DNA from: Blepharisma japonicum
Lineage: Eukaryota; Ciliophora; Heterotrichea; Heterotrichida; Blepharismidae
Reading direction: 5' to 3'
Assembly: GCA_949751835.1 (NCBI GenBank)
Contig: CATKHK010000086.1
Span: 118,303-182,302 of the forward strand
DNA length: 64,000 bases
Part shown: positions 54,410 through 63,112 of the stretch, piece after piece
How the letters are laid out: each line of letters starts with the position of its first letter
Position numbering within the stretch: position 1 is the first letter of the stretch
Notes under the pieces: model-generated
Told to the model about the DNA's origin: nothing
Databases searched by the model: none
The model's input: the letters and a program-made list of their open reading frames with translations, nothing else
Translations under genes and position numbers: made by a program

Positions 54410-54985
54410 TTAATAAATATACCTCAGACTTTGCCTTATCGAAAATGCTAGCTCAAAGCTCAGTTTATTTGCAATGTACTCAATAATTTTATCTTCAAGA
54501 CTAATTTTTCTTTCCAAATTCATCTCTTCAACTTTTTCTTGCAGCTTTTCTTTTTCTTTCTGCATTTCTTCAATATTTTCTTCGAGTTTCTTAATTTTTT
54601 CCTCTTCTTTTTCTAAAACTTGCAGATGTGCCTTGTTTTCTTCTTGAATTTTTTCTAAATTTGCTTTATAAGCTTCTTCTTTCTCTTTCATTTCTTTTTC
54701 AAGATCAATTTTTAACTGTTTTTGTGCTTGAATTTCAGATATGCTTTCTTTGAAGTCTTTTATAATTGCTTTTAGTCTGAAGTTATCGATGACTGAAAAA
54801 GAACTCAATTTTTCATTTGTTAGTGGACTTGTACTGTGGCCTGTTTTGAATCATTTTAAAATAGCTTCTTTCTCATAACTATGCCCATCAGCTGCAACAA
54901 CAGGATCTATCATAAGCTCTTGGGTGATTGGGCAGATATAATTATCGGGGATAAGTGTAGACTGGTCAAATGCTTCTAATTCCAT
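54410..54985 (-). CDS. U-box coiled-coil protein (E3-like)
   Basis: A 191-residue protein from ATG at 54983-54985, read through one TGA (ILKWFKTGH). Residues 14-75 are a U-box: [40 protein letters not shown]-box is a RING-like fold without zinc that binds E2 enzymes. Residues 80-165 are a Glu/Lys-rich coiled coil, followed by a short tail. It is probably a small E3 ligase that dimerises through the coil. No substrate domain is present. Confidence 0.85.
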
Positions 54986-57997: not shown

Positions 57998-59587
57998 ATG
58001 GAATCAAATGATATGGAGCAAACTGATTTTACTAATTTAGAACCAGCCTCAAAAGAGCCATGCAATAATCCTTTAATAGACGAGCTTGGTATGGAACTAT
58101 CAAGCATGCCCAAAAAACACAAAAAAACAACCGACAAAGACCAATCTCAGAACTCAGATCCCTCTGTTAATTGGCAAGAAACTACCAGTTTCGAAAAATC
58201 AAAATCCATTCACAAAAGGCCTGCAAGAATCATGATAAATCCACCAAGCCATAACGAAGACCCCAATCCTATTACCCTATTTCGTAAGTTTATTGACTCA
58301 AAAGTTATTAACCTTCTTATAAATTATACTGTCACCTATAGTGAATATATGAGAAGAAACTATAACATTTGCTATAAAAAATCCAAAGCAATGGAAGAAA
58401 GAATATCCCCAACCGAAATGGAAACTTTTATAGGTATCTGAATTTTAATAGGACTTGTAAGAATCCCCTATATGAATGATTACTGGTCATCAAGCGATTT
58501 ATATGGGAATAAAGTAATTTCTTCAGCAATGCCAAAAGATAGATTTGATGCTTTATATGACATGCTCCATCTTTCTTGCAGTAATTGCCCAAATCAGTGC
58601 ATAGAAAATCTGCTACCAATCGCTAATAAAATCAGAATGAATTTTCAAAAAAATGTTCACCCAGGGAAAAGAGTCTGTGTTAAAGAAGTCCCAATTCCTT
58701 ATAAAGATAAGCCAAGAGGTATCCACACCAAAATATATGGCGTATATGATTGCTCGCTAAGCTATTTATGGAATTTTGCATTTGTAAGAGGATCATATAC
58801 AGAAATCGAAAATAATTTAGGAAAAAACACTATTTTGAATTTAGTTGATGGCTTGGAGAGCAGGGATTGCCATCTTTATTTTGGAAAAAGACATTCAAGC
58901 GTTGAACTTGCAATGATTCTCAATGATTTAGGAATTAATTTTACAGCAAAAATCGATAGAAATGAAAGATGCTTGCCACCAAAAACTAAGAGAAGCTCGA
59001 TCCCTAAATATTATTACTGCAGAGACATTTTGTACTGCGCATGAACTGATAAAAGGCCTATGCATTTTATTTCTAATAGGGAATCTGTAAGCAATACAGT
59101 AAAGACTAAGCAAAGATCAGACAGAGCTCCAGAAACTCTTTGCAAGCCTAAATTAGCACTAAAATATGAAAAATTCAAAGATGGGGCCATTGAATTCAAT
59201 AAATATATCACAAATACTGAAAAGTTCTCTGGTAGAGTGTGGAGATCAATATTCAATTTTTTAATTCAAGCAGCAATAATAAACTCTTTTATTATTTATA
59301 ATCGATTCACAGGACTAAAAAAGACAAAGCGAAATCGGCTTGATATATTTAAAAAATCTTTGGGATTAGATTTGATAAGATACAGTTCTGGAAAAGATAA
59401 GCCCCAGGCTGAAGAAGTTATGGAAAAAATGAACCAACATAGAAAATGTGCACACTGCTGCAAAAGTAGTTATAACCGGACAGATTATAAATGCAAAGTG
59501 TGTAATAAACCATGTCACGTGAAATGCTATGAAGCACATTTGGTAATTTGCAGAGAGAATGGACCAGAAGAGCAATATGAGGAATAA
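57998..59587 (+). CDS. PiggyBac-derived protein without catalytic triad (domesticated PiggyMac-like)
   Basis: A 529-residue protein with TGA as Trp (FIGIWILIGL, YCAWTDKRP). A disordered head of about 85 residues precedes a DDE_Tnp_1_7 transposase fold with family landmarks: RIPYMNDYWSSSDLY, MPKDRFDALYDMLH, HPGKRVCVKEVPIPYKDKPR and a C-terminal Cys-rich domain C484-C518. The three catalytic Asp positions read K229 (CVKE for SIDE), G296 (YFGKRHSS for YTDNFYTS) and I398 (DGAIEFN for GGVDLAD). The protein should therefore not cut DNA. Ciliates use domesticated PiggyBac proteins to excise germline DNA, and Blepharisma is reported to have inactive paralogues alongside the active one. A partner role is inferred. 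No terminal repeats flank the gene. Confidence 0.9.
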
Positions 59588-59716: not shown

Positions 59717-62700
59717 ATGGTAAATAAAATGGATGAGAATAGTATAGATCTATTGATATCTATTCCTGAAAACACTACTCTATGCATTATTGCTCCAGAT
59801 ACATATCACGAGCTCATAAAAATTATTTCGGGACAAACGAATGCAGATCCATGGCAATTCAGTATTATGTATGATCGAAGCGGTCTATTAGTAAAAATCA
59901 TAGACGAGAAAACTTATATTGCTATTATAAACCGTGCAACCTTATCGGGAAAAAAAGAGCTTAATTTCTCTGTTTCTTTTGAAAGGCAGACTATGGCTAC
60001 ATTTTCAAGATCCGATTCATCAGACAGTTTTTCAGTGCTTTCTTTTCAAGCATCAGAAAGTTCATTGAATTTATCAGAGATATCAACTCCAGCTATAAAA
60101 TACACAATCCAATGCAGGATTTTTAATTCCTTAAAACCATTAGATTTTATTTCATTCAAAATTGAGCATAACGCAAAATTAGTAGAACTATCAAAAATGG
60201 TCCTTAATTATCACCAAGCTAATAATCCTTGTTTAATATGTGCATTTTATAGTGAAAATGGTTTTCCCCTAGTAGGATCGCTATATCAGCTAAGCCTTAC
60301 TAACTGCGATGAGGTGCTAAAAAACAAAGAAAAAATATGCGGGTTTATTATTCCATATTTTGACCATAAAATAGATCCTCCAATTGATCATAATGATGGA
60401 GATGATACAATTTTTTTAAAACATGATACGGATGAGTCTAAAACTTGGGCAATAAAAGCTAGCTTAAATAAAGATACTGTTTTAAATTTGAAGCAGAAAT
60501 TGTATAATCTTCTGAAAATACCTACTTTCAACTTAAAAATAGCAGATAAAAACGACACACATTTTGATGATAATAAACTACTGAAGAGCTATTTTATTAA
60601 GCCAGGAGATATTTTGAATTATTTTATATCTGAAAATAGTAATAACGAAGGATCTTACAAAGCAATGCAATTACAATCTATCCCACAAACCATGACTGGA
60701 AGAAGAACTCTTCATTCGTTTTTATATGCATTTTCTAAAGTTGATTTGCAAAAAATCAACTCTCAGCAATTGCTATCTTGCATTCGATACTTAACTAATA
60801 ATTGCTCTCCATTAATCCAATCTCTATATGAGTTGCAAAATAATAGATCTATGAGTGTTCTTAATTCAATAGCTTTAGAAGAAGGATTCATATTACTCAT
60901 CAAAAATTTATCTCAGGATCCTTTAAATATAAGTATTTCTGATGCTAAACTTTTCGAGCATTCTTTAGAAATTTTGGGAGTTCTATTTGAAGTTAGTGGA
61001 ACAATGGAAGATCACATTGTGAATGAAGAAATATATGAAAATATGAATACTATATGCCCACTTTCACTTAATAATATAGAGAAGCCTGTGAAATTAAAAA
61101 AGCAAGATGGTAACTTCAGCTTTTATGACTATAACAGCGTCATTCAATATACCAATTTAAATGCAGAAATCCCAAATGTAGGCGAAATTTTAAATATTGG
61201 AGATTTGACAGTAAACAATGATTTTAAATATATTGCAAAAAGAGTATCTTTAAGCAGTAAAACTTCTGCTGCTCAGTGGGTTGGTACATTTAATCCCCAA
61301 AATAATAGTGTATTATTGCAGTTACGCAATTTTGCTTCAGAATTAACCTATAATCAATGAACAAAATTAAGAAATAATCACCCTTTACTAAAATTCATTG
61401 CTCCATTATCTCTAAAATCTTCTGAATTCAAAAATCATCTTACTTTGAACAAATCAAAAGAGATTTGCATAAATCTTGGACTTACCGAATGCAAACCTAA
61501 TAAAATAACTCTTATGAATGTAATTGACAAATCATATGAAGATATTGATGCTTCGGAGCTTGCAGCTCAGCTGGAAATAAGAACTACTGAGGAAGAAAAA
61601 AAAGAATTAATTACACGGACACCGGAAGAGGCTATTGTTGTGCTATTTGATAATAGCTCTTCAATGAATAGTTATCATCTTGGGGATAAGGATGGATTTA
61701 AGAGAGTCGATTCAATAAAACAATTTTTTGAATCATTTTCTGATAGGACAATAGGCTATGATTTGAAAAATATTGTTTCACTTTATGTCTTTAATTCTGA
61801 TATACAAAAAATATCAAATTTTACTGAGAATATAATAACATTTGTAAATCTGACAAAAACTTTGAAACCTAAGGGCAGTACGAAGTTATGGGATTCTTTT
61901 CATAGTGCAGTTAATGCCTTATTACCTCTAAAACAGAAATATCCCGAGATTTTGATGAGAATTCTTTGTCTGAGCGATGGTGAAGATACTTGCTCTAAAA
62001 ATAATCCATTAGAAACTGCTAAACTACTGATTAGCAATAAAATAATAGCTGATGCAGTTGTAGTTGGAGAGTTATCAAATGATTTAAAAGCTCTTTGTTT
62101 GGCTACCGGAGGATATATTTTTCTACCAAGTAGCCATCAAGAAGGAATAAAGCTTTTTGAATCAGAAACATTTTTATCAGTAAAATGCAGAGAAAATGTA
62201 TCTTCAAAACAGAATTTAAACTCCCAACTCTTTGAAGAACTAAAAGGGCAAAATTTCTCATCAAAAGTTCCCATAATGAAAAAGCCTTACCAAATAGATC
62301 TCAGCGTAGAAAGCCCTACAAGAACCATTGATAGGGTTTCAGTTTCTTGCCCAGTTTGGCAAAATTCATCAACAGCCAATAGATACAAAAGAATAATGAA
62401 AGAATTGCATATTTTGACTGAGAATCCTCATAAATATATTTTTGTATTCCCATGTGAGCAGGATGACACATTTTGGAATATTTTTATAAAAGGTCCTGAA
62501 TTAACCCCCTATGAAAATGGTACCTTCCATCTCTATTTAAAATTTGGAAATAATTACCCCTTGAAGTCTCCTGAAATAAGATTTATTACCCCAATTTATC
62601 ATTGCAATGTTAATGAAAATGGTAGAATTTGTCATTCCATTTTAGACCAATTTTACACTGCTGATACTCATATTAAACAGCTACTAAGCTGCATTTATGG

Positions 62701-63112
62701 TCTACTTATGACTCCTGAACCTTTAGATCCTCTAGATGCAAATAAAGCTGCAGCCTATAGAGACAATATTTTATCTTACAACGAAAAGGCTAAGGAATAT
62801 ACAAGATTACATGCCTCGAAATCTGTTAAAGAAATTATAAAAAGCTTACCACCAAATAATTTGAATAGTCAAGGAGCTCCTATTGAATTTCTTGATCCAA
62901 TTACTAAGAAAATTATGGATGATCCTGTAAAGGTTTATACTACTGGAATAACATACGAAAGAGAAGAAATATTAAAAGTGATTAACACTACTGGAAGAGA
63001 TCCTAAGTATTTTAAGCAAATTTCTATGAATGATTTAATTCCAAATCTGGAGCTAAAGCAAAAAATTGAAGAATATAAGCAAAAGATAAACAATCCATGG
63101 TTCCTTCCTTAA
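59717..63112 (+). CDS. vWA-E2-U-box fusion protein with ubiquitin-like N-terminal domains
   Basis: A 1,131-residue protein, continuous once TGA at 61358-61360 is read as Trp. Parts in order: a PB1-like domain (about 15-95, IMYDRSGLLVKIIDEKTY); one or two ubiquitin-like domains (about 130-215 and 235-310); a helical region; a degenerate U-box/RING-like piece at about 445-478 (CPLSLNN); a vWA domain from about 638 with intact metal site DNSSS (D645); and an E2 domain (about 878-1020) with IYHCNVNENGRICHSIL, catalytic C972, HCN in place of HPN. A C-terminal U-box (about 1058-1128, FLDPITKKIMDDPVKV) completes it. E2 and E3 modules in one chain predict a self-contained ubiquitin ligase. The domains are seen; activity is inferred. 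Confidence 0.88.

Follow-up and report, generated by a model that had tools for sequence, protein, structure and literature searches.

The stretch of DNA analysed here (the window) comprises 64,000 nucleotides of a Blepharisma japonicum contig (CATKHK010000086.1, hereafter C86), and the gene considered lies near its end (Table 1). Under the standard genetic code, its frame is interrupted by a TGA codon; with TGA read as tryptophan, it is open to the TAA at 63110–63112 and encodes 1131 aa. The predicted chain consists of an N-terminal half with a probable ubiquitin-like domain, a vWA domain, an E2 domain and a C-terminal U-box. A PiggyBac-type transposase gene is located directly upstream (window 57998–59587, plus strand); it is one frame of 529 residues with TGA as tryptophan, and its middle piece matches DDE_Tnp_1_7 with an E-value of 2.4e-24. 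In addition, the opposite strand carries another U-box match some 5 kb upstream of the gene (window 54743–54952, C86:173045–173254).

Table 1. Features of the gene and of its predicted product, with coordinates in the window
Feature	Position	Strand	Basis
Whole gene, 1131 codons and TAA, TGA read as Trp	59717..63112	+	Reading frame, paralog alignment
N-terminal domain, residues 5–92 (PB1 label weak)	59729..59992	+	Pfam, PDB profile
Second conserved N-terminal stretch, residues 122–218	60080..60370	+	PDB profile, no significant match
Probable ubiquitin-like domain, residues 226–312	60392..60652	+	Pfam, PDB profile
Conserved segment, residues 320–436	60674..61024	+	Alignment; helical by eye from sequence
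Putative degenerate U-box-like segment, residues 445–485 (weak)	61049..61171	+	zf-Nse, hhalign
In-frame TGA, Trp548	61358..61360	+	Reading frame, paralog codons
vWA domain, residues 640–826 (Pfam match covers 640–787)	61634..62194	+	Pfam
MIDAS DxSxS, D645, S647, S649	61649..61663	+	Four-copy alignment
MIDAS partner T722	61880..61882	+	Four-copy alignment
MIDAS partner D754	61976..61978	+	Four-copy alignment
E2 (UBC) domain, residues 892–1028	62390..62800	+	Pfam, PDB profile alignment
HCN replacing HPN, residues 962–964	62600..62608	+	Paralog and UBE2D2 alignment
Catalytic Cys972	62630..62632	+	Aligned with UBE2D2 Cys
E2 loop L7, T981-A982-D983, at the place of UBE2D2 S94-P95-A96	62657..62665	+	Alignment
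U-box, residues 1055–1123	62879..63085	+	Pfam, PDB profile

A protein search of the B. japonicum genome (45.2 Mb, 224 contigs; GC content of the window about 25–35%) revealed three other full-length copies of the gene, on contigs C15 (48% identical), C68 (41%) and C36 (41%). All four copies lie on separate contigs, and pairwise identity among them, once aligned, is 40.0 to 70.8%. Three of the four have the same domain order; C36 departs from it in having no U-box and keeps the rest. The search gave 41 genome matches in total, and the remaining 37 comprise 36 that cover the E2 region only (within residues 861–1050) and one at C3:579243. Selection on the four-copy family is purifying. For the C68 and C36 pair, dN was 0.196 and dS was 1.403, which is near saturation; dN of this pair was lowest in the E2 domain among ten segments (0.105), followed by the vWA domain (0.106). 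The dN/dS ratios are rough, since many dS values are near or beyond saturation. In a phylogenetic tree of 32 rows, drawn from the first 60 loci of the 127 E2 matches in the genome, the four E2 domains formed one clade (support 100/99), separate from the rows grouped with UBE2D2 and with yeast Ubc13. Within this clade, C68 grouped with C36 and C15 with the C86 copy; the sister of the clade was poorly supported (44/72). Because the three sister genes have nearly the same layout, they show what, judging by the sequences, is a maintained family of genes combining E2, U-box, vWA and probable ubiquitin-like domains.

The four copies contain eight TGA codons. Three of them, in the C15 paralog, align with W521, W725 and W920, all encoded by TGG in the remaining copies; for this reason TGA is not a stop in this family, and the proposed split near 61360 is therefore not a gene end. 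The other five TGA codons are at columns without a shared tryptophan: Trp548 of the C86 copy corresponds to Ser, Leu and Leu, one further C15 codon corresponds to Leu in the other copies, and at each of the three C36 codons TGG is found in one other copy. According to part of the published description of Blepharisma stoltei (PMC9942806), its 41 Mbp genome is 66% AT, UGA encodes tryptophan, and introns are mainly 15 and 16 bp long. In each of the three paralogs, the open frame has its first Met at the position of Met5, so the C86 gene may alternatively start at 59729. A 15-base GTA...CAG string at 62198–62212, in the variable linker between the vWA and E2 domains, may represent a very short intron of the type reported for Blepharisma; the frame is kept either way.

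The single chain that an earlier note on this DNA had proposed across 59717–63112 is borne out by the 1131-residue frame and by the three collinear long paralogs. An artefact in which two genes, or a join made in assembly, appear as a single gene would be suggested by the in-frame TGA at 61358 under the standard code, and it is extremely improbable. A split gene at 61360 was rejected in view of the C15 TGA codons at three tryptophan columns, and an assembly fusion was rejected because four collinear long frames under purifying selection lie on four contigs.

As for the N-terminal half, the earlier note had placed PB1/ubiquitin-like domains at the head of the chain, of which the ubiquitin-like part is retained as probable and PB1 is not established. 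The Pfam ubiquitin-like profile gave an E-value of 0.28 in the C86 copy and 1.2e-4, 1.1e-4 and 0.009 in the paralogs, with scores of 11.4 to 22.3 bits, all under the cut-off of 25.4. A profile of this region matched ubiquitin-family chains in the PDB, the strongest matches being inflated by multi-ubiquitin chains; the best short chain was a designed ubiquitin variant (3.2e-5), followed by the natural chain 2kan (uncharacterized protein, 0.0025). Residues 226–312 thus represent a probable ubiquitin-like domain, with support mainly from the paralogs. The PB1 profile matched only C36 (E-value 0.0077, 16.6 bits with a cut-off of 23.6), and a five-sequence profile of the first N-terminal stretch found no PB1 chain in the PDB, the best E-value of 0.12 being not significant; PB1 was rejected as an established domain on both grounds. 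The profile of the second N-terminal stretch likewise gave nothing significant in the PDB (best E-value 0.37).

Residues 445–485 may be a degenerate U-box-like segment, which is a weak lead. In hhalign, the segment matched the real U-box with an E-value of 1.6e-4 and a probability of 50, and zf-Nse touches it in the C68 copy (E-value 0.0071). Its profile found nothing significant in the PDB (best E-value 0.17), and the family U-box profile reached it only at chance level. In addition, residues 4–137 share 43% identity with the first stretch of a WD40-repeat protein encoded by a 503-residue frame (C3:579243; L037:1504–3012, plus strand). This WD40 protein is a possible partner or substrate adaptor.

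The profile searches and the alignment to known E2 proteins agreed with the remaining domains of the earlier note, namely a vWA domain with an intact metal site, an E2 fold with the active Cys972, and a U-box directly after it. The Pfam VWA_2 match (residues 640–755) had an E-value of 1.3e-6 and 29.4 bits, barely over the cut-off of 27. The five residues D645, S647, S649, T722 and D754, which we take to be the MIDAS places, are invariant in all four copies.

The E2 domain was recognized with much higher scores: Pfam UQ_con matched with an E-value of 2.1e-34 and 118.6 bits (cut-off 27), and the profile matched UBE2D2 in the PDB with 2e-36. The best 60 of the 116 PDB matches all bear the name of a ubiquitin E2 or carrier, most of them UBE2D or UBC13. 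Cys972 falls on the UBE2D2 catalytic Cys in the alignment and is invariant in the four copies, and Asn964 and Asp1004 are kept at the corresponding Asn and Asp places (presumably Cys85, Asn77 and Asp117 of UBE2D2). The HPN motif reads HCN in all four copies, only the middle Pro being replaced. Compared with UBE2D2, the family also has His973-Ser974 for Leu-Asp after the catalytic Cys (CHS for CLD), which is invariant in the four copies, and Tyr980 stands for Trp in the C86 copy. Ser974 thus occupies the place of UBE2D2 Asp87, and Asp87 of UBE2D has a role in lysine reactivity. Among 29 distinct E2 peptides from the first 60 loci of the 127 E2 matches, 23 have HPN, three have HCN, and HPW, HPA and HAW occur once each, HAW being by eye a stray match. 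All three HCN peptides come from the four-copy family; C36 also has HCN and was merged with C68 as a duplicate. Since HCN is invariant in the four copies, it is a family feature, and decay was rejected as its explanation. The Asn of HPN is the residue usually assigned the oxyanion role. The HCN motif described in the earlier note is therefore real, and the concern that it may alter the oxyanion site has little force, because His962 and Asn964 are retained.

The invariant HCN and His-Ser could also mean that this E2 serves another ubiquitin-like modifier, or that it hands ubiquitin to a Cys or another non-lysine acceptor. This is unlikely, given the retained Asp1004 and Asn964 and the names of the best 60 PDB matches. 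A non-catalytic scaffold with a pseudo-E2 and a U-box, to which the several changed neighbours of the active site and the copy without a U-box would be congenial, is more improbable still: the catalytic Cys is invariant and the E2 domain has the lowest dN of the ten segments in the C68 and C36 comparison.

The U-box begins about 25 residues downstream of the E2 domain. The Pfam U-box profile (PF04564) matched with an E-value of 1.2e-14 and 54.6 bits (cut-off 21.4), and the PDB matches include the U-box chains of E4, CHIP, PUB12 and LubX. The zf-Nse profile, which represents the SUMO-ligase zinc-finger family, a relative of the U-box, also passes over residues 1051–1092 with 29.8 bits (cut-off 27) and is far weaker than the U-box match. 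Where both domains are present, in three copies, the gap between E2 and U-box is 70, 73 and 79 bases. According to the Pfam analysis, C36 has no U-box; its E2 is followed by an ELTG motif and then by 30 residues up to the end of the chain, and the family U-box profile against the six frames of the 6.1 kb of C36 gave only a chance-level match (E-value 0.16), at the U-box-like segment. Because of the E2 tree, loss of the U-box in C36 appears to be the simpler reading. AlphaFold prediction of the E2 and U-box stretch as a single sequence gave a mean pLDDT of 35 and was set aside.

Residues relevant to the pairing of CHIP with its E2 were compared in the family. Loop L7 reads TAD in the C86 copy and TVD in C15, and S-P-A is retained by C68 and by the U-box-less C36. 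CHIP P269 is placed, as we assume, at the DP proline of the family U-boxes. The position corresponding to CHIP R272, the third after this proline, is not basic: it is Phe1099 in the C86 copy, with Lys1100 next to it, Gly in C15, and Gly after a gap in C68. According to part of the CHIP study, the CHIP U-box needs S-P-A on the partner E2, E2s without it are not cognate for CHIP, and R272A abolishes CHIP autoubiquitination with UbcH5 and still works with Ubc13 (PMC2396629). The linchpin residue is important in U-box E3s also, as stated in part of another source (PMC12326332). The pattern at both positions fits either an altered, private interface or a U-box without effect on the neighbouring E2.

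In the latter case, the E2 would be active and the U-box would recruit other E2s or dimerize, and the protein would be an E3/E4-like platform with a built-in second E2. The absence of S-P-A in the C86 copy and C15, together with its presence in C68 and the U-box-less C36, points in this direction, as do the relationship of the U-box to those of E4 and CHIP and the rows of the genome that group with UBE2D2 and Ubc13 and could be partners. The short spacing between E2 and U-box, however, suggests a working pair, and the S-P-A rule holds for CHIP but not for all RING/U-box E3s; UbcH7 works with c-Cbl. UbcH7 reads K-P-A, according to part of the CHIP study (PMC2396629). An uncoupled U-box is a tentative and somewhat doubtful alternative.

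Taken from the sequence, the features are one chain with a UBE2D/UBC13-like E2 core and its Cys, a U-box, a vWA domain whose metal site is complete, a probable ubiquitin-like domain, and strong conservation. Our preferred reading, to which we assign a probability of about 50%, is that the product is an E2-E3 hybrid ubiquitin ligase, one of a family of four in B. japonicum. The E2 and U-box profile matches, the common domain order of three copies on separate contigs, the purifying selection and the single E2 clade count for this reading; the loss of S-P-A in the C86 copy and C15, the missing Arg in the U-boxes, HCN with Ser974, the zf-Nse match and the copy without a U-box count against it. In such a ligase, E1 would load ubiquitin on Cys972, the U-box of the same chain or of a partner chain would hold the loaded E2 ready, and the vWA and N-terminal domains would bind the substrate; substrate choice, E2 and E3 help would be united in one molecule. 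Since C36 does without a U-box, this domain looks like an accessory to an indispensable core made up of the E2, the vWA domain and the N-terminal part.

A bolder variant of the hybrid ligase concerns Cys963, an extra Cys nine residues before Cys972 that is invariant in the family. The E2 and U-box might have co-evolved into a private pair, the E2 loop having departed from S-P-A in such a way that it responds to its own U-box alone, and Cys963 might gate or relay the thioester. We consider this combination a long shot; if true, it would mean a ligase independent of external E2s and E3s, with a built-in redox switch.

The E2-E3 hybrids UBE2O and BIRC6/BRUCE are likewise large chains with their own E2 domain and other parts; they are not known to have a U-box or vWA domain, and their E2s are of other classes. 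Judged by layout, the four-copy family is set apart from UBE2O and BIRC6 as a variant of the E2-E3 hybrid kind. To our knowledge, E2-E3 hybrids are few, and none combines an E2 with a RING or U-box helper on a single chain. With E4/UFD2, CHIP and plant PUB, the family shares a significant U-box match and differs in lacking an Arg that would correspond to CHIP R272; we know of none of these U-box E3s with its own E2 domain. In the RGLG/copine type and WAV3, a vWA domain is joined to a RING E3; they have a vWA and a ligase domain in common with the family, the latter being a RING and not a U-box, and are not known to carry an E2. UBE2D and UBC13 are among the closest solved chains, with a similar E2 core and the same Cys, Asn and Asp positions, but they have HPN and CLD where the family has HCN and CHS, and the Blepharisma E2 is located inside a protein of 1131 residues. 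Part of a published survey (PMC2964712) records the BIR and UBCc layout and also the Clade 6A PARPs (PARP-UBCc), in which an E2 is likewise fused to another catalytic domain, without a U-box or vWA. In the literature on such fusions and on E2-E3 hybrids, mainly its openly accessible part and including portions of PMC2964712 and PMC11354881, no description of the E2/U-box/vWA order was found.

The combination is also rare in the genome. Profile searches of the genomic DNA gave 127 E2, 50 U-box and 35 VWA_2 matches. E2 and U-box occur on the same strand within 4 kb in three cases, namely in the C86 gene, C15 and C68; on C26, two additional pairs combine matches from opposite strands. VWA_2 lies beside a same-strand E2 in the C86 gene and C15, and in another three pairs, on C156 and C173, the two matches lie on opposite strands. 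The DNA search undercounts vWA domains, since those of C68 and C36 were found by the VWA profile on protein. Among viral contigs, the protein search for relatives gave 27 stretches that fit a pattern and the alignment search gave 131, and none was confirmed; among bacterial and archaeal genomes, none of 83 stretches was confirmed. Two to six short peptide patterns seeded these scans, which would overlook distant relatives.

If the E2 and U-box cooperate in cis, the family would provide a natural system for a U-box that activates its own E2 at a fixed distance. The same genome offers natural variants that either have or lack S-P-A, and one that lacks the U-box, so what the U-box adds is directly testable.

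Other E2 arrangements were observed in this genome. E2 matches cluster on contigs C21, C107, C68, C46 and C170, and some of the 127 may be exons of one gene. Two frames of more than 1000 residues contain three E2 (UQ_con) stretches each (L062:1760–4915, plus strand, and L063:1425–4523, minus strand), and frames with two E2 stretches each are found at L061, L064 and L065. In addition, UBA, PARP and E2 domains are present in one frame each at L066:2–2290 and L067:3–2018, both on the plus strand.
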